DNA of 64,000 bases from Caldilineales bacterium (lineage in GTDB: Bacteria > Chloroflexota > Anaerolineae > J102): positions 1 through 64,000 of the forward strand of contig JAIBAP010000001.1 in NCBI GenBank assembly GCA_019695115.1, read 5' to 3'. The position numbers and the translations under genes are program-made. Of the stretch, positions 47,380 through 59,598 are shown one piece after another (positions within the stretch are counted from its first letter, which is position 1; every line of letters starts with the position of its first letter). The notes under the pieces are model-generated. The model ran no database searches and was not told where the DNA came from. It saw only the letters and a list, made by a program, of their open reading frames with translations.

Positions 47380-47769
47380 TCAGTAGCTGACGGTGCGCAA
47401 CCCTGGCACACGCTGAAATTCGGCGGTGTTGCGCGTGAGCAGTGGCAGATCGTGTTGGCGAGCTGAGGCGGCAATCCACAGGTCGTGCGGGCCGATCAGC
47501 GTGTTGAGGCGGCGTAACTGTGCATAGAGGTGGGCGTACAATGCCAGTGTGTCCTCATCGGGCCAGATGGTTTTGTGGCGGCTCAGAAAAGCATTCACCT
47601 GGGCATAATCATGACTAGCGACGGCGGCGCCGCGCAAGAATTCGGCTTTCACCACCCACACCAGCCGGATCTCGCTGTCGAGAAATGGGGCCAGATCGCG
47701 CAATCGCTCAGGCGAGAGAGCGTCGCGCCAACAGCGAATGAGAAAGTTGGTGTCGGCAAGGTAGATCAT
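47380..47769 (-). CDS. vapC: VapC-type PIN-domain toxin
   Basis: A 129-residue PIN protein with the acidic residues of the nuclease centre: Asp in MIYLADTNFLIR, Glu in VVKAEFLRG, Asp in IGPHDLWIAASA and Asn/Glu in LLTRNTAEF. VapC toxins cut tRNA or rRNA. It starts three bases after the antitoxin stop. Confidence 0.9.
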   Translation of the reverse strand: MIYLADTNFLIRCWRDALSPERLRDLAPFLDSEIRLVWVVKAEFLRGAAVASHDYAQVNAFLSRHKTIWPDEDTLALYAHLYAQLRRLNTLIGPHDLWIAASARQHDLPLLTRNTAEFQRVPGLRTVSY

Positions 47770-47772
47770 GGA

Positions 47773-48048
47773 TCAACTCTGTGCCGGCGGTAATTCCGAA
47801 CTGGCCAGCCACGGGTCCATACCCTCCTCCACATTTTTCCAATCGTTTGCCCAGGCCAGGGTCTCGGCCATGACCTGCGCCTGCGGGTCGGTCAGCGGTG
47901 GCAGTTGCTTGAAAGCCTCGATCATGTCGGCCAGGGTGCCGTGCTTGGGCACGACGCGCAACACGACGTTGGAGAATGAATCCTGGGTGCCTGATTTCCA
48001 GTCCTTCAGGCGGGTGTAGGCTTCCTCGGTCAGGGTAATCGTTTTCAT
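47773..48048 (-). CDS. vapB: VapB-type antitoxin (DUF217-like)
   Basis: A 91-residue protein whose N-terminus MKTITLTEEAYTRLKDWKSG matches the short ribbon-helix-helix-like antitoxins of the DUF217/UPF0330 group common in archaea and Chloroflexi; the C-terminal half would wrap the toxin. The ATG at 48048 is six bases from a -10 box, so the mRNA is probably leaderless. Confidence 0.85.
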   Translation of the reverse strand: MKTITLTEEAYTRLKDWKSGTQDSFSNVVLRVVPKHGTLADMIEAFKQLPPLTDPQAQVMAETLAWANDWKNVEEGMDPWLASSELPPAQS

Positions 48049-48054
48049 GCAGGC

Positions 48055-48083
48055 ATGATAGCACGAGTCGTGCGGTCGTGCAA
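48055..48083 (-). promoter_or_regulatory. vapBC promoter with overlapping operator
   Basis: On the minus strand TTGCAC (48078-48083) and TATCAT (48055-48060) are 17 bases apart. Between them lies the palindrome GCACGACTCGTGC (48061-48073), and GCACGAC occurs once more upstream. This is the expected place for autorepression by the VapBC complex. Confidence 0.78.
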
Positions 48084-48150
48084 GGGCCATCGCGGAGTCA
48101 GCACGCAGTACCCTGCGTCGCCCACGTGCGGCCCATTCGAAGGCGACCAT

Positions 48151-48189: not shown

Positions 48190-51100
48190 TCAATCCAGGC
48201 CGTAACGCTGGAGTTCTTCCGGCGTCAATGCCAGCGGGTCGCGCTGGATGAGCGGGGCGGAGAGGGTGAGGAGGCGTTCGGGGTCGGTAGGGCGGAGGCG
48301 GGGGTCATCATGGACGGAGGTCAAAATGTATTGCCCATCTGGGCTGAAGACGCCCAGCGATTCCCCGCCCAATTGCCAGAGATGCCGATGATCCCGGATA
48401 TCCCAGACATCGACGCCCGTCTCATCTTTGATAGCTACAAGGCGGTTGTCGAGGCTGAAAACGACTTCGCCGATAGCGCCAGTCACATCAAGCGATGTAA
48501 TCTGCTGCTCGCTCTTGGTTTCGGCAATGACCACTTTCTGCAGCTTGGCATCGTGCAGGGCGACAAAAGCGCCATCAGGGCTTACGGCTACGACGCGCCC
48601 CAATGGACTGGCTGCGAACAACTCGTTGCCGTTGCGGAGATCGAAAAGGCGCTTGACACGCTGATCCTGCGACAAATCCTCCACGATGAGATAGTTGTTA
48701 TCGACACTGAAATTGCTAAAGAAAGAATCCAAAGGCCCCAGGATTCTTCTACCCGTGGATAGATCGAAAACATGAAGGCGACGATCCTCATCATCATCAA
48801 CAGCAATCTTGCTGCTATCATCACTAAAGTAGAAATAGTATGAGGAAGTGGGGATTTCTGCAGGAAGAGGAATGTCAGTTCCATCCTGGCTGTCAACGAG
48901 TCGGATTTTTCCTTCTTCGGTGATAAAACCGATCAACCTGCCATCCGGGCTGATTTTATACTCCTCAGTCGCGCCATTTAGAGAAAAAAGTTCTTTCGTG
49001 CCAGCAAGATCCCATACATGCCCAGTTGAGTCATCTGTAACAATGATAACGAAATCTCCTCTGGGACTGATGATCGGGGAGAATGAATCATCACTGAGCA
49101 TATCGATATCGAGTTCAGTCGCTTCTCCTGTCGAGATGTTCCATAGACGCGTGACATCATCGATCCCTTTGACTATGATGAAGGGACTGCTCATGTTCCA
49201 AGTGTGCTGCGACAGAATCTCGACTACCCCGATCGGAAACAGGCTCTCGCCCGTCTTGGCATCCCATACAGCGGTATAGCCGACGGAATTCCGTGTAAGG
49301 ATACGGGCACCTTCGTTGAAGAAAATTGCCCTCTCATAGCTGCCGCCATTTCCAAGACTCAAATGGGAACTGGAAATGGTTGTATCCCAAGCGAAGTAAG
49401 GACCAATCGTAGAATCACTGGTTACGTGACCAACGACGAAGCGACCATCAGTGCTGAAATCAAAATCACCAGACGGCCTGCCTAGAAGGAATTCATCGCC
49501 CGTATCGGTATTCCAGAACTTGTCCCGGTACTGAAGGAGTCGGGAATCAGGACTGAATCCAAGCGCATCGACGTCGGTAATGCCCCGCAGATTCAGAAGG
49601 ACGCGGCCGGACAACGCATCCTGAATCCATGCCCCGTCTTCACTGGTATGGGTGAGGACTAGCGAGCCATCGCGGTTGAGAATGGCGAAGTCCACCAGTC
49701 CTTCGCTATCGAATGGCTTAGGATTTTCATTGCTCGTCAGGTCGTGCAGCCACGCGGTGCCATCCTCGCGCACAATCAGTAGTCGTGTATCTTTCGCATC
49801 GAACTGACGATCAATCTCTTGGCTCGCGCCCCTGATTCGCCCCAACGATCTCACCTCCTGCAAGTTGTCCGCCAGCAAAAGCCTTGCTACACCATCGTTC
49901 GCGCGGACAAGCAGATACTTGCCGGTCTTGCTAAACCGAACCTTGTCGATGTTGCGCCCTCTCAGTCTCTGCTGCACTTCGCCGGTGTCAGTGCGAAGTA
50001 TGAGCGCCCGGCCATCGGCGCTGACGACTGCAATCTGGCTGCTATCAGGGCTAATATCGAGTTGTTCGAGGCCAACACCCCCGCCAAACGGGTTCAACGC
50101 CCGCCCGCTCTCTGCCTTCACGATGCGATTCAAAGCCTCGCCGTCTGTAACTATCAGCAGATTGCCGGGGATTTTGACATCCTCACCGCTCACGTTTACA
50201 CCATCTTCAAGTGGTATTTCATCTCCCGTCCCTGCATCCAAGAGATGATAGCGGCCACCTTCATCAAAGTCATCCAGCAGTAACCACTCGCTATTCTGGC
50301 TAAATAAACCTGTATAGCTATTGACATCGGAAGTCCACAATTTTTGTTTCGATCGAAGATCCCACAGGGTTGGGCCAAAGTTAACATCAAAAACCATAAG
50401 AGATGCGTTGTCAGGGCTGAAAATACCAGGACTTACAACAAGTGCAGCATCTTCCAATTCGTAACGCACATCCCATGTTTCTGTATCCCATATCTTGATG
50501 CTTTCATCACCTACACTAGCCAAGAGCGCGCCATCTTCGCTAAAGGAGATGCCTCCCAATTGACCATCCCATGTATCGACAGGCATCGCGATTTCTTGCC
50601 CTGGTCGCAAATCCCATACATGGAACGTGCCATTCTGATCAGTTGTTACAAGCAGTTCACCGCTTGGGCTTAGCTCCGCGCTCTGAAGCGGCCCATTTTC
50701 GCTGCCCGCAACCAGCCGCCACGGCCACGACTTGGCCATCGCCTGCATCAGCGCGTCGCTGGCCTGGGGATGAATGTAGCCATCTTCGAGGGTCGTCGTC
50801 ATAGCGCGCCTTGCCAGCAGGATGGCCAGGTCGGGGTCCTCTGGGTATTGGTCGATAGCGATTTTGGCTTGGGCGGCCAGTTCGCCAGCGGTCGAGCGCC
50901 GTCTTTGTTTGTCCGCTTCAGCGGCCTTGTCCTTAGCCAACTTGGTTTGGCCCACGGCATCCTCTTTTGCTGCCACCGCTTCCTCTTTTGCTTTCACCGC
51001 TTCGGCGGTCTTCACATCGGCTAGGGACTTTGCGCTTCGCCAACGCAAACCCATCAATAGCGCCAACACCAAAAGGGCCGCGCCAATGCCAACAAAAATG

Positions 51101-52782
51101 CGCAGGCGGTTATTGTTCTTCCGCTCCGCCTCCGCCCGCCTGCGCGCTTCCTCGGCCTTCGCCTCCAGCAAGGCCTCGCGCTCGCGGCGGGCGGCTGCCG
51201 CTTGCTGCTCTCGCTGCTCCGCCGCGATGCGGCTGGCGGCCAGGAACAGGTTCTCGCGCCCGCTCAGTTGCGGCGCCGCTCGGGCTAGCCATGCCTCCGC
51301 AGTATCCAGCCGCAACCCACCCCACAAGAAATCTTCACTCGCTTTGCTGGCCTCCCATTCCCGCGCCGCCTCCTCCACCTGCAACTGGAAGCGCAAGTCC
51401 TCGCGCCCATTCTCGATCCACTCGCGCAGGGTCGGCCAGGCCCGGATCAGGGCCTCGTGCGAGACCTCGGCCGTTTCCCCACCCGTGGCCGGGTCGCGGC
51501 CCGTGGTCAGCAGGCGCTCGTCCACCAACGGCTTCAGCAGCGCCTGCACCTCGTCGGGCGTGTGGCCGGCCGGGGTCAGGTCATCCAACAAGGCCCGGCG
51601 GCGGCTGTCCAGCGCCCCTTCGCCCGGCTGGATCAGCTTGAGCAACAGGTGGCGCAATTGTTCGCGCTCATCTTCGCCGTATTTTTCATGCAGGATGGCG
51701 TCGGCGCGGGCGGCCAGCGCCCCCTCCACCCCGCCCATCGCCTTGTAGGCCGCCCAGGTCATGGCGCCCTCGCCGTCCCGCTGCTCCCACAGCTTCGACA
51801 GTGTGTATTCCAGCAGCGGCAGCGCGCCCGGCTTGCCCGCCACCTGCTCGACCAGCTCCTCGGCCAGCCCCGCCTCGAACTCGCCGCCCACTTCCAGGGC
51901 CGGGTCGTAGATGGCCGAGCCTAATTCCTCCGGCGTCATGGCGCTGACGATGACATCATGGTCGGCGATCCAGCGCGCCAGTTCGGGGTACTCCGCCACC
52001 CGGTGCAGGAAATCGGCCCGCAGGGTGATGATCAGGCAGACAGGCGTCTGCACGGCGGCGACGGCGGCCAGCAGTTGGCGAACGAAGGGGATGCTCTGCC
52101 CGGCCTCGTGGGCGGCGCGGGCGTCCTTGTCGGCCGGGGCCAGCGTCACCAGTTCCTCGGCCTGATCCACCACCAGCACCAGCCGGCGGTTGCCGGCCTG
52201 GCCCAGCAGCAGGTCGGCGGCCAGTAGCAGCCCCCGCTCATCTTCGGCCAGCAGCCGGCGCATCGACAGCACCGCCTCGGCGCTATCGCCGCCCTTGAGT
52301 TGGGCCAGGGCCACGGCCAACGCATCCAGGGGCCGGCCGCCCGGTTTGAAGATGGCGTAGAGCCAGCCCTCGCTGCCCGGCAAAGCGCCGCCTTTCAACT
52401 CCGGGAGCAGCCCCGCCCGCACCACGCTGCTCTTGCCGCTGCCCGACGGCCCCATCACGGCCAGGAACGGCCACTGCCGCACCTTGTCCACCAGTTCGGC
52501 GGTGAGGGCATCGCGGCCGAAAAAGAGGTCGGCGTCTTTCTCCTCGAAGGTGCGCAGACCGACATAGGGGTTGAAGTCGGCGGCGGGCGCCTCCCGCAGT
52601 GCGTCCCACTCGGCCTCGACTTTCTTCAGCTCCTCCTCGACCTGCTTTCTTTCGTGGACAAGCTCGAAGGGCGCATCCACCCCCTTGATGGCAATCTGCC
52701 CATCGAGATAGCCCAGCTTATTCAGCAGAAGCTCGCGTTGTTGGCGTAATTCCCGCACTCTTTGGCGCTGTTCGCGGCGCAT
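48190..52782 (-). CDS. STAND-type NTPase with membrane helix and WD40-like propeller repeats
   Basis: A 1530-residue protein. Residues 1-65 are a charged coiled coil that could be an effector-associated domain. Residues ~70-510 are a STAND ATPase of the nSTAND1 type: NPYVGLRTFEEKDADLFFGRD, Walker A GPSGSGKSS (111-119), Walker B LVLVVDQAEE (201-210), and LPLLEYTLSKLW with the winged-helix part. A coiled coil and one membrane helix (561-580) follow, then WD40-like repeats (about 690-1500; DG..LASVGD.SIKIWD). The repeat half has markedly lower G+C than the ATPase half. Such proteins sense a ligand with the propeller and signal through the N-terminus, often in defence or programmed death. Confidence 0.88.
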   Translation of the reverse strand: MRREQRQRVRELRQQRELLLNKLGYLDGQIAIKGVDAPFELVHERKQVEEELKKVEAEWDALREAPAADFNPYVGLRTFEEKDADLFFGRDALTAELVDKVRQWPFLAVMGPSGSGKSSVVRAGLLPELKGGALPGSEGWLYAIFKPGGRPLDALAVALAQLKGGDSAEAVLSMRRLLAEDERGLLLAADLLLGQAGNRRLVLVVDQAEELVTLAPADKDARAAHEAGQSIPFVRQLLAAVAAVQTPVCLIITLRADFLHRVAEYPELARWIADHDVIVSAMTPEELGSAIYDPALEVGGEFEAGLAEELVEQVAGKPGALPLLEYTLSKLWEQRDGEGAMTWAAYKAMGGVEGALAARADAILHEKYGEDEREQLRHLLLKLIQPGEGALDSRRRALLDDLTPAGHTPDEVQALLKPLVDERLLTTGRDPATGGETAEVSHEALIRAWPTLREWIENGREDLRFQLQVEEAAREWEASKASEDFLWGGLRLDTAEAWLARAAPQLSGRENLFLAASRIAAEQREQQAAAARREREALLEAKAEEARRRAEAERKNNNRLRIFVGIGAALLVLALLMGLRWRSAKSLADVKTAEAVKAKEEAVAAKEDAVGQTKLAKDKAAEADKQRRRSTAGELAAQAKIAIDQYPEDPDLAILLARRAMTTTLEDGYIHPQASDALMQAMAKSWPWRLVAGSENGPLQSAELSPSGELLVTTDQNGTFHVWDLRPGQEIAMPVDTWDGQLGGISFSEDGALLASVGDESIKIWDTETWDVRYELEDAALVVSPGIFSPDNASLMVFDVNFGPTLWDLRSKQKLWTSDVNSYTGLFSQNSEWLLLDDFDEGGRYHLLDAGTGDEIPLEDGVNVSGEDVKIPGNLLIVTDGEALNRIVKAESGRALNPFGGGVGLEQLDISPDSSQIAVVSADGRALILRTDTGEVQQRLRGRNIDKVRFSKTGKYLLVRANDGVARLLLADNLQEVRSLGRIRGASQEIDRQFDAKDTRLLIVREDGTAWLHDLTSNENPKPFDSEGLVDFAILNRDGSLVLTHTSEDGAWIQDALSGRVLLNLRGITDVDALGFSPDSRLLQYRDKFWNTDTGDEFLLGRPSGDFDFSTDGRFVVGHVTSDSTIGPYFAWDTTISSSHLSLGNGGSYERAIFFNEGARILTRNSVGYTAVWDAKTGESLFPIGVVEILSQHTWNMSSPFIIVKGIDDVTRLWNISTGEATELDIDMLSDDSFSPIISPRGDFVIIVTDDSTGHVWDLAGTKELFSLNGATEEYKISPDGRLIGFITEEGKIRLVDSQDGTDIPLPAEIPTSSYYFYFSDDSSKIAVDDDEDRRLHVFDLSTGRRILGPLDSFFSNFSVDNNYLIVEDLSQDQRVKRLFDLRNGNELFAASPLGRVVAVSPDGAFVALHDAKLQKVVIAETKSEQQITSLDVTGAIGEVVFSLDNRLVAIKDETGVDVWDIRDHRHLWQLGGESLGVFSPDGQYILTSVHDDPRLRPTDPERLLTLSAPLIQRDPLALTPEELQRYGLD

Positions 52783-52974: not shown

Positions 52975-53023
52975 ATCGGGCGGGAGGACAGGGGACGAAT
53001 GGGATCGAAGGAATCAGGTGAAA

Positions 53024-53113
53024 TCAGGCATGTAGTCCGCGTTGCACCACTCGGTCGAGTTCCACGACTTCTCCTCGTATGCGCTTTGCGACTTGCAGAT
53101 AACGATCCGTCAC
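53024..53113 (-). pseudogene. Truncated 29-residue remnant of an MNT partner (HepT-like N-terminus)
   Basis: Reading from a GTG that overlaps the MNT stop (GTGA), a 29-residue ORF (VTDRYLQVAKRIRGEVVELD...) ends at a TGA. The sequence looks like the first helix of HEPN/HepT-like toxins that normally follow MNT genes and are about 150 residues long. The rest of such a protein is missing. The pair would thus be a broken toxin-antitoxin module. Confidence 0.45.
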
Positions 53114-53517
53114 AGTTCGATTCCATCCGCTTGAATAGCCGCGCGCAATGGCTCCGACGCGGTCTCCAAGGCAACAAAATCCACCGCTCGATCAGCGATG
53201 ACTTCCTCGACCAGGCGCCAGGCGCGCCAGAAATCTCCGCCCTTCATACCCTCCACAGCCATGTCAACATCGGTGGTGTCATCATACCAGGCGCCATGCG
53301 CCAATGAGCCAAAGAGCACCACGCGCTGGACATCAAAACGATGCTTCAACTCGCGCACTGCCTCCCGAACGCGCTCTAACAGCAGGGAGCGATCTATCTC
53401 CTGCGCTGGTGTGATGGGCGCGGGTAATTGGCGCTGTCGCGCCGCTCTCAGATATCGCTGTCGTTCTTCAAGGCTAAGTGTCAGAGCTGTGCTCATGGCC
53501 ACCGATTTCGAGTCCAT
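53110..53517 (-). CDS. MNT-type nucleotidyltransferase (antitoxin-like)
   Basis: A 135-residue protein of the minimal nucleotidyltransferase group: VVLFGSLAHGAW and DDTTDVDMAVEG give the GS...DxD catalytic motif. Such proteins (MntA-like) add AMP groups to the HEPN partner and neutralise it. The start could be the ATG at 53517 or the internal one at 53496. The intact partner gene is absent. Confidence 0.85.
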   Translation of the reverse strand: MDSKSVAMSTALTLSLEERQRYLRAARQRQLPAPITPAQEIDRSLLLERVREAVRELKHRFDVQRVVLFGSLAHGAWYDDTTDVDMAVEGMKGGDFWRAWRLVEEVIADRAVDFVALETASEPLRAAIQADGIEL

Positions 53518-53669
53518 GTCGTGGGAGGAGGCGCCTCCGCCCCCATTCTACGACAAAGTTCGACTGGATGCCAGTTGACCTCACACGACCTCTTTCGCTT
53601 TGCGCATACGGGGCTTCCACCCTCAGCCGGGCGGATTCCGGCCCCCGGCGGCCCATGCGATCTCCCAAT

Positions 53670-53699
53670 CAAAACAAAAGCCCGGTCTCTCGACCGGGC
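53670..53699 (-). terminator. Terminator of DUF35 gene
   Basis: GCCCGGTC and GACCGGGC pair around TCTC (53680-53699). On the minus strand the stem is followed by TTTTGTTTT. It lies 30 bases after the DUF35 stop. Confidence 0.85.
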
Positions 53700-53729
53700 G
53701 AAACAACAGAACGAAAAGTCTTTGCGGGA

Positions 53730-54137
53730 TCAGGCAGCCAGCGCCATCATCTGCGGGCGGAATTTGTAGCCGTATTGGATCAGACCCTCGTCGCCTTCGA
53801 CGCTGAGCTTGCGCGTGACCATCTCCACCGGCATACCGATGCGGATGTCCTTCGCTTCGACATCGGTCAGTTGCGCCGTCAGCATCGGGCCTTCGTGCAA
53901 CTTGATCAGGGCCAGGCTGTAGGGCGACTGGGCGTCGAAACCCTTGGGGGCCTCGAACACGGTGGTGAAGCTGTAGACCTCCCCCTTGCCACTCAGACGG
54001 ATGGGGTCATAGGCCGGTTTGGCGCATTCGGGGCAGACGTCGCGGGGGGGGAAGACGGTCGAGCCACAGTGATGGCAGAGTTCACCGGTGAGACTGTAGC
54101 GTTGTTTTTTGACTCGCCAACTGCGTGCGATAGACAT
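53730..54137 (-). CDS. DUF35 zinc-ribbon/OB-fold protein of HMG-CoA synthesis complex
   Basis: A 135-residue protein with a rubredoxin-like zinc ribbon (CHHCGSTVFPPRDVCPEC, residues ~21-38) and an OB-fold (YSFTTVFEAPKGFDAQSPYSLALIKL). In archaea such DUF35 proteins hold thiolase and HMG-CoA synthase in one complex and share a CoA site. Both enzymes are encoded just upstream on the same strand. AGGAG lies seven bases before the ATG at 54137. Confidence 0.9.
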   Translation of the reverse strand: MSIARSWRVKKQRYSLTGELCHHCGSTVFPPRDVCPECAKPAYDPIRLSGKGEVYSFTTVFEAPKGFDAQSPYSLALIKLHEGPMLTAQLTDVEAKDIRIGMPVEMVTRKLSVEGDEGLIQYGYKFRPQMMALAA

Positions 54138-54156
54138 TGGGGATTCTCCTGATTGC

Positions 54157-54189
54157 AAACCCTAAAGGTTTCGGAAACCTTTAGGGTTT
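54157..54189 (-). repeat. Perfect hairpin in leader of DUF35 gene
   Basis: AAACCCTAAAGGTTT and its exact complement (54157-54171, 54175-54189) form a 15-base-pair stem with loop CGG, ending 20 bases before the start codon. Two further TTTAGGGTTT copies lie next to it (to 54214). It looks like a REP-type element. Confidence 0.85.
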
Positions 54190-54309
54190 TTAGGGTTTGG
54201 AACGTTTTAGGGTTTGGGACGTTCGTAGCGCCTCTGACTCTAGCCCGTTCGGCCTCTCAAAAACCATCAGTCTGGCCACCAGGCCAGCGGTGATAGGCTT
54301 TGACAGCAC

Positions 54310-54370
54310 TTGCAAAAGTTCTATTTCACTTTTGCAATGGTATTGTACAGAATATCTTCGCCCATGTCAA
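54310..54370 (-). promoter_or_regulatory. Consensus promoter with palindromic operator upstream of DUF35 gene
   Basis: On the minus strand TTGACA (54365-54370), 17 bases, TACAAT (54342-54347). Four bases downstream begins an inverted repeat TTGCAAAAGT-N8-ACTTTTGCAA (54310-54337) covering the expected transcription start. This is the layout of a repressor-controlled promoter. The DUF35 ATG is about 200 bases downstream. Confidence 0.82.
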
Positions 54371-54419
54371 ATTCCGATCAGCCCGATCCGCGTTCATCCG
54401 CGTTTCTCCGCGTACCCTG

Positions 54420-55583
54420 TCAATCCTGCCCGCGCAGGATGTGGGTGACGATGGTGGCGCCGGAGCCGCCGATGTTTTGAGTCATAGCGATGTGGGCCTG
54501 GGCGATCTGGTTGGCGCCGACCTCGCCCCGCAGCTGCTGCACCGCCTCCACCACCTGGTAGACGCCCGTGGCCCCCACCGGATGCCCGCGCGCCTTCAGC
54601 CCGCCCATCGTCGTGATCGGCAGCCTCCCCGCCAGCGTGATCGCCCCCGAAGCGCCCAACTCGACCCCCCGCCCGCGCTCGGCAAAGCCGCACGCCTCCA
54701 AGGCCAGCACCGACATGATGCTGAAGGCATCGTGCAGCTCGAAGAGATCGATGTCCTCCGGGCGCAGGCCGGCCTGGGTCAGAGCGCGCTGGCTGGAAAG
54801 CCAGGCGGCGCTAAGGAAGAGCGGGTCGCTGCGGTCGTGGACGGCCAGGGTGTCGGTGGCCGAAGCCGAGCCGGCGATGTGAACGAGACGCTGGCCCCGC
54901 CCGAACTCCCGCGCCCGCTCGGCCGGCATCAGCACCACCGCCGCCGCCCCGTCGCAGATGGGCGAACTGTCGAGCACATTGATCGGCGGGGCCACCAGGG
55001 CGGCCTTCTCGTACTTATCCACCGAGATGGGCATGGGGAACATGGCGTTGGGGTTGTTGCGGGCGTTCTGATGGGCGTTGACCGGGAAAGGCGCAAAATC
55101 GTGATGCGAAACGCCGTATTCGTGCATATAACGCTGCATCAGCATCGCATTCAGGGCCAGGAAGGTGGCGCCCTCGGCCACTTCATACTCCTGGTCGGCC
55201 GCCAGCGCCAGCCCGGCCGTGGTCTCGTCGGGGAGGGTGTCGGTCATCTTCTCCACCCCCGCCACCACCACCGTCTCAACCTGGCCGCTGGCCACGGCCA
55301 TCATGCCCAGCCGCAGCGCCGCCGCGCCCGAGGCGCAGGCCGCCTCGATCTTGGCCGCCTCGATCCCGCGCAGACCGACGAAATCGGCGATGAGCGTGGC
55401 CAGATGCTCTTGCCCGGCCAATTCGCCCGAAAGCATGTTGCCCACAAAGAGGGCGTCGGCCGTCTCGACCCCGGCATCCTGCATGGCTGCCACCACAGCA
55501 TCATGGCCGAGATGGCGGATGCTCTTGTCCCACAGTTCGCCCACGGGCGTCTGCCCGATGCCAACGATAGCTACTTGTCTCAT
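54420..55583 (-). CDS. Acetyl-CoA acetyltransferase (archaeal/SCP-x-type thiolase)
   Basis: A 387-residue thiolase-fold protein of the type paired with DUF35: [16 protein letters not shown], the nucleophile Cys in [15 protein letters not shown]-like ELHDAFSIM in place of the usual NEAFA segment, and [14 protein letters not shown]. It should condense two acetyl-CoA to acetoacetyl-CoA and pass it to HMG-CoA synthase. Its ATG overlaps the synthase stop (ATGA). Confidence 0.92.
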
Positions 55584-56638
55584 TTCATCTTCAACTTGCC
55601 GCGATAGCGGAGATAGGTGGCGTAGTCGATGACCGTCCGCCGGCGGATGTAGTCTTCGGTGCTGGGGGCCAGCAGGCGGCGGTCGTGGATGCCGTCGGTC
55701 ACTTCGAACGACATGGCATCGCTGCCGGCGCCGGAGCCAAACGAGACGACCAGGATGCGGTCGCCCGGCTGCGCCACATCTAGCACAGCCGTCAGGCCGA
55801 CGATGGAGGCCCCAGAATAGGTGTTGCCGATCCGCCCCACCAGCAGGCCGGTCTCCCACTGCTGGCGCTTGAAACCGAGTTGCTGCGCGGCTTTGGTGGG
55901 AAACTTGGTGTTGGGCTGGTGCAGGACGACATAGCGATAGTCGGTGGCGGTGCGGCCCATCGCCTGCAAGATCATCTCACCGGCGGTGACGATGTGGTGG
56001 AAATAGGCCGGTTCGCCGGTGAAGCGCATCCCGTGCGACGGATACTCGGCCTGGGGCCGCCGCCAGAAGTCGGGCGTGTCGGTGACATAGGAAAGCGAAC
56101 CCTCGAAACGGGCCAACGACGGCTCGGCCGGGCCGACGATGATGGCGGCGCCGCCGGCGCCAGCGGTATATTCCAGGGCGTCGCCGGGCCGGCCCTGGGC
56201 GGTGTCGGCGCCCACGCCCATGGCATAGTCGGCCATGCCCGACCCAACCATGCCGATGGCGGCGACGATGGCCTCGGAGCCGGCCTTGCAGGCAAACTCC
56301 CAGTCGGCGGCCTGCACCATGGGCGCCGCGCCCAGGGCCTCAGCGACGATGGTGGAGGTGGGTTTGACGGCGTAGGGGTGGCTTTCGCTGCCAACCCAGA
56401 TGGCGCGCAGGTCGGTGGGGGCGATGCCAGCGCGGATCAAGGCGTTGCGGGCGGCCTCGATGGCGATGGTGGCGGTGTCTTCGTCCAGGCCAGGGACGGC
56501 TTTTTCTTCGATCGGCGGTTCGGCGGTTCCGTCCGTCCACATCTCCGAGACTTCTTTGGCCGGGAGGCGGTAGCGGGGGATGTAGGCGCCATAGCCGGCA
56601 ATGCCGACGGCGCGGGTGGGTTGGAGGAGGGTGGTCAT
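55580..56638 (-). CDS. Hydroxymethylglutaryl-CoA synthase (archaeal type)
   Basis: A 352-residue condensing enzyme of the short archaeal HMG-CoA synthase type: [15 protein letters not shown], the Cys in [14 protein letters not shown], His in [11 protein letters not shown] and the IGNTYSGAS segment. It makes HMG-CoA, the second step of the mevalonate pathway. A G-rich heptamer array lies right upstream instead of a Shine-Dalgarno. The HMG-CoA reductase gene precedes it on the same strand. Confidence 0.94.
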
Positions 56639-56646
56639 TTTGCGGG

Positions 56647-56750
56647 GTGCGTGTTACGTGTTGCGTGTTGCGTGGTGCGTGGGGCGTGATGCGTGATGCG
56701 TGGTGCGTGGTGCGTGGTGCGTGGTGCGTGGCGCGTAGTGCGTGGTGCGT
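56647..56750 (-). repeat. Heptamer array CACGCAC upstream of HMG-CoA synthase gene
   Basis: About fourteen units of GTGCGTG/GTGCGTT on plus (CACGCAC on the sense strand of the synthase gene) end nine bases before its ATG. The unit matches the end of the array at 37228. Confidence 0.92.
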
Positions 56751-56791
56751 TTCTTCTTCGATTATCGGTCATAGCGCGATTTCGACGAAAC

Positions 56792-56870
56792 AACCTGCTT
56801 CAGCAGGTTTTTCATGTCAGGCCGTGAATTCATTCACGGCCCTCATTCACGGCACTCTCATTCACAGCAC
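56792..56870. repeat. REP-like hairpins between HMG-CoA reductase and synthase genes
   Basis: AACCTGC-TTCA-GCAGGTT (56792-56809) and GCCGTGAAT-TC-ATTCACGGC (56821-56840) are perfect small hairpins, and TCATTCACGGC or a variant is repeated twice more up to 56870. They resemble dispersed intergenic palindromes. Confidence 0.72.
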
Positions 56871-56901
56871 GGAACACGGAACACGCAACACGGAACACCC
56901 C

Positions 56902-58068
56902 TCACGTCAACCTCGAACGCCTGGCATGCAAGGCCATGTGGCCGGCCTGGATGCCCTCGGCGGCCAGGGCGCGCAGGGCGGCCAGATTCTGGGCCAGGCC
57001 GGCGGCGGCCAGGATTTGGGAGAGGGTGCGGGCGTCGGGCTGGTCGAGGATCTTGAGGGCGAGGCGGGCGGTGGGGTGCAGCCGGGTCATGCCGCCCACG
57101 ACGCCGACGGCCAGCGGCAACTCCAGCCGCCCGACCAGGTCTTCGCCCTCCTGCCGCCACTCGCTGAGCGAGCGATAGCGGCCATCACGGGCGGCATAGG
57201 CATGGCCGCCGGCCTCGATCGCCCGCCAATCCTGGCCGGTGGCCAGGGCGACGGCGTCGATGCCGTTGAAGATGCCCTTGTTGTGGGTGGCGGCGCGATA
57301 GGGGTCGGCCAGGGCGAAGGCGGTGGCGAGTTCGATGCCACGGGCCACCTCGCTACCCTCGAATTCGGGCGTGGCGAAGGCGGTGGCAGGGATGCGGCAG
57401 GAGGCCCAGGCCCGGCGCTGGTCGCTGAGATTGCTGAGGATGCGAAGCAGCGCCCGCCCGCCGCTCAGCGACTCGAGGGCGGGGGCCAGCGCCTCGGCGG
57501 CGGTGTTGATAGCGTTGGCGCCCATGGCGTCACGGGCGTCGAAGAGCAGGTGGACGATGAGCATCGGCCCGGCGGGGGTGTCGTCCAGGCGGCGAACCTG
57601 GAGGTCGCGCGGGCCGCCGCCCAGCCGCTGGATAGTAGGGTGGAGGTCTGCAATTTGGGCCAGCAGATCGGCTTTGTTCCGGAGGATGCGTTCGGCTGCC
57701 AGGTCGGGATCAGGTACATCCAACAGCTGCACCTGGCCGATCATCACCGGCTGTGTGCTGCCGGTGCTGAAGCCGCCGCCCGCCCGCGCCAACCTGGCCG
57801 CATTGGCCATCGCCGCCACCACCGAGGGTTCTTCGACCACCATCGGCAGCAGCAGCTCGCGGCCATCGATGATGAAATTGGGGGCGATGGCAAAAGGCAG
57901 GGCGTAGAGGCCGACGGTGTTCTCGACCAGGGTATCGGCCGCTTCCAGGCTGAGGCCGCCCGCCATCGCTGCCAGATCGTCCTCGCTCAACCCGGCCCAA
58001 AGGGCGAGTTGCTCACGGCGGTGGCGAGGCGGCAGTTGGTAGAAACCCTGGAGTCGGCTGCTAGGCAT
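56902..58068 (-). CDS. Hydroxymethylglutaryl-CoA reductase, class II
   Basis: A 388-residue enzyme of the bacterial class II type: N-terminal SRLQGFYQLPPRHRREQL, VENTVGLYALPFAIAPNF, DARDAMGANAINTAAE, HNKGIFNGIDAVALATGQDW and GGMTRLHPTARL, with the C-terminal GHMALHARR holding the catalytic His. It reduces HMG-CoA to mevalonate. It starts at 58068, 25 bases after a strong terminator-like hairpin. Together with the three genes downstream it supplies the upper mevalonate pathway; kinases are not in the window. Confidence 0.93.
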   Translation of the reverse strand: MPSSRLQGFYQLPPRHRREQLALWAGLSEDDLAAMAGGLSLEAADTLVENTVGLYALPFAIAPNFIIDGRELLLPMVVEEPSVVAAMANAARLARAGGGFSTGSTQPVMIGQVQLLDVPDPDLAAERILRNKADLLAQIADLHPTIQRLGGGPRDLQVRRLDDTPAGPMLIVHLLFDARDAMGANAINTAAEALAPALESLSGGRALLRILSNLSDQRRAWASCRIPATAFATPEFEGSEVARGIELATAFALADPYRAATHNKGIFNGIDAVALATGQDWRAIEAGGHAYAARDGRYRSLSEWRQEGEDLVGRLELPLAVGVVGGMTRLHPTARLALKILDQPDARTLSQILAAAGLAQNLAALRALAAEGIQAGHMALHARRSRLT

Positions 58069-58092
58069 GAAAGGGGAGGGGGATCGAAGCGC

Positions 58093-58120
58093 AAAAAAGC
58101 CCCCACATGGCGGTGGGAGC
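58093..58120 (-). terminator. Terminator or attenuator before HMG-CoA reductase gene
   Basis: On the minus strand GCTCCCAC and GTGGGGGC pair around CGCCAT and are followed by six T. It could end the antiporter-like operon whose last stop is at 58201. A TGCTACAGT box at 58159-58167 lies before it, so it might instead attenuate the reductase transcript. Confidence 0.7.
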
Positions 58121-58200
58121 AAAGATGGTTGGCGCAGGTGGGGGGGGATGCCAGGGGCACTGTAGCACCGGTTGGCTGCCAAAAGCTATCAGGGCTGTGC

Positions 58201-59598
58201 TCAGGGCGCCTGAGCCAGCCAGTTGCTGAGGGTGAAGGTGATGGGGTCGAAGAGAGAGGGGTGGATGGAGAGGAGGAAGCCGACGAGAAGCAGGGGGATG
58301 ATCAGCCAGGCCAGATGGGGGGCCTCACGCAAGAGGGCGGCATCGGTCAGGGGCCGGCCGAGTGCGCGCAGGATGCGCACGGCGGTCACGGTCATCAGCA
58401 GGAGCGAGAGCATCAGCCACAGGAAAACGCCCGGTTGGCTGGCCTCGGCCAGGCGGATGACGGCCAGCCGCAACGGAAACAGCGCGCCCAGCGGCCAACC
58501 CAAGAGAAAGAGACCGCCGGCCACCAGGCCGATGCTGGCCAGCGGCAGGCGCTCGAAGCCGCCGTGGATTTCGCTGAGCGAGGCGTTGGCGCCAAAACGA
58601 CGGCCAAAGGCCTGCAAACCGCCGGCAACCAGCACCAACACCAGTGGACGCGCCAGCGCAAGCCAGACCTGGGCTTCGTTGCCGAACTCGCCGCTTAGGC
58701 TCCAGAGCAAAAAGGCGGCGCCGTAATCCCATAACAGCAGATAGCCCCACCATTGGCCCAGCCGATGGCTGCCCAAGCCCAGCACTGCCGCCCACAGGAG
58801 TTGAATGACAGCCAACCACGGCAGCCATAGGGCAGGATCGGCGTATTCGGCCACGGTGGGATAGGCCAGCAAGATGCGGCGCACGAGCGCGTAGGCGGTG
58901 ATCTGCCAGACGCCGACGAGAAAGGCGGCGGCGAAGGGGGGGGCGTGCTCACCCAGGCCGGTGATCCAGCTGTGCAAAGGCACGGGCGTGAGGAGCACGG
59001 CCAGGCCGATGACCAGGCCACGCCAGGCCGCCACCCACAGTTCGTGTTCGCGCACGGCCAGGTCGCTTTGCGCCAAGGCCCAAGCGGCAAAGAGAAAGAA
59101 GGGGAAGGCAAGGGTGGGGATAAGAAGGATGCGCAAGGCGGGGCGCGAGAGGCGCGGGCTGGCGCCCTGGGCGGGGAAAGCCATGAGCACAGCAGCCACC
59201 AGCAGCCAAAGGGGCGCCCACAGAACAGGTGCGCTGCTCAGGGCGATGGTCAAGGCGGCCAGGATGAGGGGAATGGTGGAGAACAGGACCCGGTCGGCCC
59301 CGGTCCAGCCTGCGGCCAACCCAAAGACCCCGCCCCAGCAAGCCAACAAGAAGACCGGGGCGCGCGCCGAGGCATCCAGCAAAAGGTTGAAGCCCAGAAA
59401 GACGTTGGGGCGAGTCAGGCTGATGGCCCGGCCCATGACCATCATCTCGCCTGCGGTGGGAAGGCGCCAAAGGAACCACAGCAGCACCGCCATCCCCATG
59501 GCGATGACCAGTCCCGGCAGCCCTGGCAGGCGTCGCAGCAGGTGCGCTACCAGTGCCAGCAGTAGTAGCCAGAGCACCACAGCCACAAGCAGGGTCAC
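58201..59598 (-). CDS. NuoN/NuoM-like membrane protein lacking key charged residues
   Basis: A 465-residue protein with about 13 membrane helices. VLLTPVPLHSWITGLGEHAPPFAAAFLVG aligns with the antiporter signature of NuoN (usually FKLSLVPFH.W....EGAP.P..AFL), but the conserved Lys of helix 7 is Leu, and I cannot find the helix-5 Glu. It starts with GTG at 59598, overlapping the previous stop (GTGA). It may be a structural or diverged ion-translocating unit. Confidence 0.72.
   Translation of the reverse strand: MTLLVAVVLWLLLLALVAHLLRRLPGLPGLVIAMGMAVLLWFLWRLPTAGEMMVMGRAISLTRPNVFLGFNLLLDASARAPVFLLACWGGVFGLAAGWTGADRVLFSTIPLILAALTIALSSAPVLWAPLWLLVAAVLMAFPAQGASPRLSRPALRILLIPTLAFPFFLFAAWALAQSDLAVREHELWVAAWRGLVIGLAVLLTPVPLHSWITGLGEHAPPFAAAFLVGVWQITAYALVRRILLAYPTVAEYADPALWLPWLAVIQLLWAAVLGLGSHRLGQWWGYLLLWDYGAAFLLWSLSGEFGNEAQVWLALARPLVLVLVAGGLQAFGRRFGANASLSEIHGGFERLPLASIGLVAGGLFLLGWPLGALFPLRLAVIRLAEASQPGVFLWLMLSLLLMTVTAVRILRALGRPLTDAALLREAPHLAWLIIPLLLVGFLLSIHPSLFDPITFTLSNWLAQAP

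Follow-up and report, generated by a model that had tools for sequence, protein, structure and literature searches.

A promoter box shared by HMG-CoA reductase operons and detached DUF35 genes suggests co-regulation of the mevalonate pathway in Chloroflexota

Activators of the PhoB type touch RNA polymerase, and their sites lie over the -35 region, upstream of the -10 hexamer; the operators of TetR/MarR proteins usually take the form of a dyad laid over the start site. In animals, the mevalonate pathway is under the control of SREBP (PMC7472741), and the Pho box consists of two 11-nt direct repeat units with 7 conserved and 4 less conserved nucleotides (PMC4415409). As for the pathway itself, an archaeal DUF35 protein mediates the tight association of thiolase with HMG-CoA synthase (PMC12329534), and mevalonate pathways of archaeal type (PMC13001223) and of haloarchaea type (PMC11052028) have been reported in some Chloroflexota. 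The descriptions of the archaeal complex that we consulted concern the complex itself and none of them gene control. To our knowledge, no bacterial mevalonate pathway has been assigned a transcriptional regulator of its own, and the openly licensed papers that we searched, which are weak evidence of novelty, hold no mevalonate regulator, box or regulon in Chloroflexota. The promoter box described here is of a known kind and apparently a new instance of it.

The window (the whole stretch of 64,000 nucleotides that was analysed) carries on its minus strand, in the order HMGR, HMG-CoA synthase, thiolase and DUF35, the following genes:

56902-58068, minus strand: HMG-CoA reductase (HMGR) gene (PF00368, E=1.2e-102)
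55580-56638, minus strand: HMG-CoA synthase gene (PDB 6ESQ chain I, E=1.2e-123)
54420-55577, minus strand: acetoacetyl-CoA thiolase gene (Pfam; PDB 7YVY, then 6ESQ chain A)
53730-54137, minus strand: DUF35 gene, zinc ribbon and OB fold (Pfam; PDB 6ESQ chain E, E=4.9e-35)

The archaeal thiolase/HMG-CoA synthase/DUF35 complex, 6ESQ, is the best PDB match for DUF35 and for HMG-CoA synthase, a protein that Pfam recognised only as having the thiolase fold and whose identity the PDB match makes precise, and the second best for the thiolase; homologues of all three subunits of the archaeal complex are present in the window. These matches fit the idea of the initial annotation that DUF35 is the scaffold of the thiolase/HMG-CoA synthase complex, which we consider likely. 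The DUF35 gene was found in 57 of 61 genomes, our own and 60 relatives, and in the window it starts 286 bp past the thiolase match.

That annotation had also proposed that DUF35 is driven separately, by a TTGACA-N17-TACAAT promoter with a 28-base palindrome that would mark a regulon and be bound by a neighbouring TetR/MarR protein. The elements that we recognise upstream of DUF35 and of HMGR are these:

54342-54370, minus strand: P1, sigma-70-type promoter, with -35 TTGACA (54370-54365), 17 nt and -10 TACAAT (54347-54342)
54310-54337, unstranded: palindrome TTGCAAAAGT-N8-ACTTTTGCAA, spanning the expected P1 start near 54335
54291-54306, minus strand: distal (inverted) arm CTGTCAAAGCCTATCA of the mevalonate box
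54254-54269, minus strand: proximal arm TGATGGTTTTTGAGAG of the mevalonate box
54237-54242, minus strand: -10 hexamer TAGAGT of promoter P2, 11 nt past the proximal arm, with no -35 hexamer (profile E = 0.0012)
54157-54189, unstranded: perfect 16-bp hairpin AAACCCTAAAGGTTTC/GAAACCTTTAGGGTTT in the DUF35 leader
58176-58191, minus strand: mevalonate box arm TGATAGCTTTTGGCAG before HMGR (profile E = 1.0e-4)
58159-58164, minus strand: HMGR promoter -10 TACAGT with TG extension (GTGC-TACAGT), 11 nt past the arm
58093-58120, minus strand: terminator-like hairpin with T run in the HMGR leader (GCTCCCACCGCCATGTGGGGGC-TTTTTT)

The promoter sequence is indeed present, on the minus strand and facing DUF35 (ATG at 54137), and with 11 of 12 consensus bases it is the top of four promoter-like sites between 50000 and 58000 (shuffle mean 1.2). 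The palindrome is likewise there as claimed, its two 10-bp arms being 100% complementary and 8 nt apart. It is more than local chance: when the intergenic region 54138-54419 was shuffled 2000 times with its dinucleotides preserved, only 5 of the shuffles held any perfect 10-bp inverted repeat with a gap of at most 20; the whole window has 11 such repeats versus 0-4 in 10 shuffles. As a regulon marker it did not hold up. Allowing up to three mismatches, it occurs once, with no second copy in the window or in the 6-Mb genome, and none of 19 family relatives has it near DUF35; the 3-mismatch matches that three of the 19 have away from DUF35 are at chance level. The regulon idea fails because there is neither a second occurrence nor conservation, the yardstick set by the initial annotation itself, and genome uniqueness together with the zero count in relatives led us to reject the palindrome as a conserved operator.

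Within the genus, the TTGACA/TACAAT pair recurs in both other species (G001 and G002, with spacers of 17 and 16); it is weaker in G003 and G005 (10 of 12 consensus bases), and a P1-like promoter is absent from most of the 17 family DUF35 loci. At the site of the palindrome, G001 has the short dyad TGCAAA-N3-TTTGCA and G002 no dyad. The distance from the end of the -10 to the next conserved arm is 24 nt in G001, G002, G003 and G005 and 35 nt in the window, and the 11 extra bases of the window lie in the centre of the palindrome, which was formed by an 11-bp insertion with respect to these four relatives. The palindrome is real and apparently species-specific, and would represent a local change of the spacer between P1 and the arm. 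It is possible that it serves as a species-specific operator. That it is the operator of a TetR/MarR-type repressor, setting the level of DUF35 apart from that of the enzymes, we regard as unlikely: it has the usual layout, a perfect dyad, locally rare by chance, placed where transcription from a strong promoter is expected to begin, and G001 has its shorter dyad at the same place, but no second site or conserved copy accompanies it, G002 lacks it, the eight nearby proteins scanned with Pfam include no TetR/MarR regulator, the relatives show no conserved regulator cluster, and the box shared with HMGR predicts co-regulation instead.

This box lies just downstream of the palindrome, where the sequence reads CTGTCAAAGCCTATCA, 21 nt, TGATGGTTTTTGAGAG, 11 nt, TAGAGT. 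The unit made of an arm TGATRGYTTTTGACAG placed 11 nt ahead of a -10 hexamer is common to DUF35 (54269-54237) and HMGR (58191-58159), and within the 16-bp box TGATRGYTTTTGACAG the half-site TGAYAG repeats at 10 bp. At a 17-nt spacing from the -10, the window has GGTTTT before DUF35 and AGCTTT before HMGR, each with 0 of 6 bases matching TTGACA. The distal (left) arm is found in 17 of the 17 family DUF35 loci read, and in 16 of them the arms lie 37, 38 or 39 bp apart from start to start (6, 9 and 1 loci); in the seventeenth (L016), the proximal arm was missed by our rule because the -10 is GATACT. The two-arm element persists even when a non-thiolase gene stands upstream of DUF35. Our first description, a two-arm dyad peculiar to DUF35, was discarded, since the broad pattern occurs in 90 of 298 genomes of the class and, outside the family, mostly at random places; replacing it with the promoter-proximal arm and its -10 exposed the link to HMGR. 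The half-site search gave a match before HMGR in five genomes: that of the window, G001, G007, G018 and G006.

The inverted arms before DUF35 could in principle work at the level of RNA and not of DNA, folding in the P1 transcript into a hairpin that serves as an attenuator or stability element, and they could indeed pair, for instance in genus g6 (CTGTCAAAAAC with GTTTTTGACAG). We give this reading hardly any credence: HMGR mostly has one arm, upstream of its -10, the arms mismatch in the window, G001, G003 and G005, most of the 17 family loci are without a P1-like promoter, and 53000-59000 has no Rfam match.

Upstream of HMGR, most regions read TGATAGYTTTTGACAG-N11-TATAnT or a near variant. 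We compared 75 HMGR upstream regions, distinct over the 180 bases used, although the presence of a genome in more than one collection may have led to some being counted twice. An arm matching 12 or more of 15 bases was found in 73 regions, and in 64 of the 73 it is followed at exactly 11 nt by TA...T; the median distance from arm to start codon is 96 nt. The 64 sites have an extended -10, with G (72%), T (77%), G (92%) and any base before the hexamer. In the table of these sites, positions 5, 6, 8-12, 15, 16, 28, 29 and 33 were set wholly or partly by the search rule, so that only the remaining columns are informative. A terminator-like hairpin with a T run is present in 28 of 62 HMGR leaders, compared with a mean of 4.0 and a maximum of 9 in 30 rounds of shuffling. 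The enrichment is real, and the hairpin, which sits close after the promoter and varies in sequence among relatives, is possibly an attenuator.

The promoters with the box have the layout of class II promoters, with a site over the -35 region (the arm covers about -39 to -24), no -35 hexamer and a recognisable -10. The fixed phasing to the -10 and the lack of a -35 suggest an activator that touches the polymerase. At HMGR, an extended -10 needs no activator, which leaves room for repression: the box could be a repressor operator, the extended -10 promoters running unaided unless an abundance of isoprenoids brings a repressor to -39 to -24, where it would keep polymerase out. The TG extension of the HMGR promoters speaks for such an operator, as does the distal arm, which in five genomes is so placed after P1 that a protein bound to it would obstruct that promoter. 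Nevertheless, an operator does not need a spacing as strict as the 11 nt kept in 64 of 73 regions, and the TG extension is mostly missing from the P2 promoters of DUF35. We find a repressor operator rather unlikely, if worth keeping in mind, and prefer activation over repression by roughly two to one.

The specificity of the box was assessed with R1, a 33-bp profile made from 29 sites. In the 61 genomes, R1 gave 50 matches at E<=0.01, spread over 42 genomes; according to tblastn with the four proteins of the window, they precede HMGR (40), DUF35 (9) and HMG-CoA synthase (1), at 19-455 bp from their genes. While 28 of the 50 are training sites, the 22 from outside the training set also all stand before HMGR or DUF35. 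When the columns of the profile were shuffled, nothing reached E<=0.01 in these 61 genomes (18 matches up to 0.3, the best at 0.029), and seven of the 61 genomes lack an R1 match at E<=0.3. Eight matches with E between 0.01 and 0.3 and away from mevalonate genes were inspected: at seven of them (L189, L190, L192, L193, L194, L195 and L196) no mevalonate gene was seen, and the eighth, L191, is an unplanned partial box before a type 2 IPP isomerase (G034, 2460-2484). The IPP isomerase gene was found in 57 of 61 genomes; none of the 30 of its loci that were inspected has a box, and only the G034 locus, taken separately, has one, so that IPP isomerase is not a general target.

Beyond these genomes, the exact pattern TGATAGNTTTTGRCAG-N11-TATANT was run over the roughly 85,000 species of GTDB and returned 35 stretches; for 34 of them the record title names Chloroflexota, Chloroflexi or a subgroup, and for one Woesebacteria. 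Thirty precede HMGR, one HMG-CoA synthase and one HMGR as judged by eye (L251, cut by the end of the locus); two end too early to judge and one (L234) is off target. A search with strict filters of 400 genomes, drawn evenly from the phylum irrespective of whether they have the pathway, gave 27 matches at E<=0.01 in 24 genomes, the other 376 having none. Of these, 14 lie before HMGR, 6 before HMG-CoA synthase and 2 before DUF35; two are ambiguous, HMG-CoA synthase being about 1.2 kb (L208) and 0.7 kb (L217) downstream, and three are off target, namely L209 and two that fall within a long open frame (L206 and L207). Outside the class, the box stands before HMGR in G307, G444 and G597, and before HMG-CoA synthase in six genomes of one genus. 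All these counts come from related species and are not independent by descent. Judging from the sequence matches, the box is specific to the pathway and spread across the class and other Chloroflexota; within the phylum it is not confined to a single class, and it occurs only before the committed enzymes and the scaffold.

This specificity weighs against the possibility that the box is a general response-regulator site of the OmpR/PhoB type with many targets, in which the mevalonate link would be incidental. The box resembles a Pho box in several respects: tandem half-sites in direct repeat about one helical turn apart, a likewise placed site over the -35 and upstream of the -10, and a half-site, CTRTCA on the bottom strand, similar to the E. 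coli CTGTCAT (PMC4415409). However, the period is 11 in the Pho box and 10 bp between the TGAYAG half-sites, the orientation at the proximal arm is opposite, and Pho boxes stand before phosphate genes, whereas the strong matches of our box in the 61 genomes stand 50 out of 50 before mevalonate genes. A general site of this type is therefore very unlikely in our judgement.

The distribution of the box follows gene order. Adding 40 neighbourhood loci to the window gave a set of 41 sequences (629 kb), in which R1 at E<=1 has 60 matches. HMGR, HMG-CoA synthase or DUF35 follows within 420 bp for 59 of them, and the last lies 455 bp before the HMGR of G008; 22 of 23 HMGR genes have a match within 420 bp. 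DUF35 has a box of its own in 25 of the 27 loci where it is split from the thiolase (15 of 16 when at least 125 bp from it, 10 of 11 when no thiolase is adjacent in the stretch), versus 0 of the 14 where the two are adjacent (<125 bp). The Fisher P of 3.4e-9 has to be read with a 125-bp cut chosen post hoc, species that are related and a profile partly trained on these sequences. Four of the split loci (L127, L131, L134 and L138) have the inverted arm only. Box matches are present where DUF35 would otherwise lose the promoter of its operon, and this gene-order test is a natural indication that the synthesis of DUF35 has to keep pace with that of the enzymes it holds together.

The proposal that DUF35 is driven separately thus stands in one part: the gene does have its own control region, whose P1 pair recurs in relatives. 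The same box, however, precedes the HMGR operon, and a box common to both argues for co-regulation and against separate control of DUF35. Enzymes and scaffold made in step fit better than a scaffold switched alone, and such co-regulation makes sense because DUF35 holds thiolase and HMG-CoA synthase together in the archaeal complex. In the reading that we favour and consider probable, a putative DNA-binding protein, probably an activator, co-regulates the HMGR operon and DUF35 through the box. Most likely, a sequence-specific protein encoded away from the operon would bind the box as a tandem dimer and, like other activators of class II type, make contact with RNA polymerase; HMGR, HMG-CoA synthase, thiolase and DUF35 would then rise and fall together, the natural guess for the signal being the demand on the pathway. 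A DUF35 gene split from the thiolase would stay in the regulon through its own box. In the family of the window the DUF35 box has a second, inverted arm, and in its genus a strong extra promoter, P1, lies just upstream of the two-arm element. The distal arm, which starts 24 nt after the -10 of P1 in four relatives and one helical turn farther in the window, would begin about 18 nt into the expected P1 transcript, and the same protein may also curb P1. The box itself, its positions, spacing and specificity and its tie to gene order are seen in the sequence, from which the binding of a protein, activation, the signal and any effect on P1 are inferred.

A broader reading, which we find about equally easy to believe and to doubt, is that Chloroflexota have a dedicated mevalonate transcription factor with an SREBP-like role, whose small and ancient regulon follows the detached DUF35, the copying of the promoter keeping the stoichiometry of the channelling complex. 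Its members would be the HMGR operon, the detached DUF35 and occasionally IPP isomerase. The likeness to SREBP lies in one dedicated element common to genes of the pathway; the mevalonate box differs in being part of a bacterial promoter, with an unrelated sequence, presumably an unrelated protein and few target genes. Looking for the regulator by neighbourhood gave no candidate: gene clusters in 45 sequences include no conserved regulator, and among the 42 of 59 listed genes upstream of boxes that were scanned with Pfam (10 and 32) there is no DNA-binding regulator, one member of an upstream gene cluster having matched a histidine kinase N-terminal region. The box itself can be used as bait for its protein, which makes the question of the regulator directly testable.

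Some other features of the locus deserve mention. The hairpin at 54157-54189 belongs to a palindromic repeat of which at least 14 copies are scattered over the 6-Mb genome. Low-complexity repeats of the GCACCACGC/GCATCACGC type fill 56640-56760, before HMG-CoA synthase, and similar ones are found upstream of DUF35 in L004 and L013. Adjoining DUF35, a small nucleotidyltransferase of 135 aa (PF18765/PF01909) is encoded at 53110-53517 (minus strand); beyond it come a protein of 1530 aa that combines an nSTAND1 NTPase domain with WD40 repeats (48190-52782, minus strand) and, at 47380-48150 (minus strand), a PIN-domain protein with a VapB-type antitoxin, likely a toxin-antitoxin pair.
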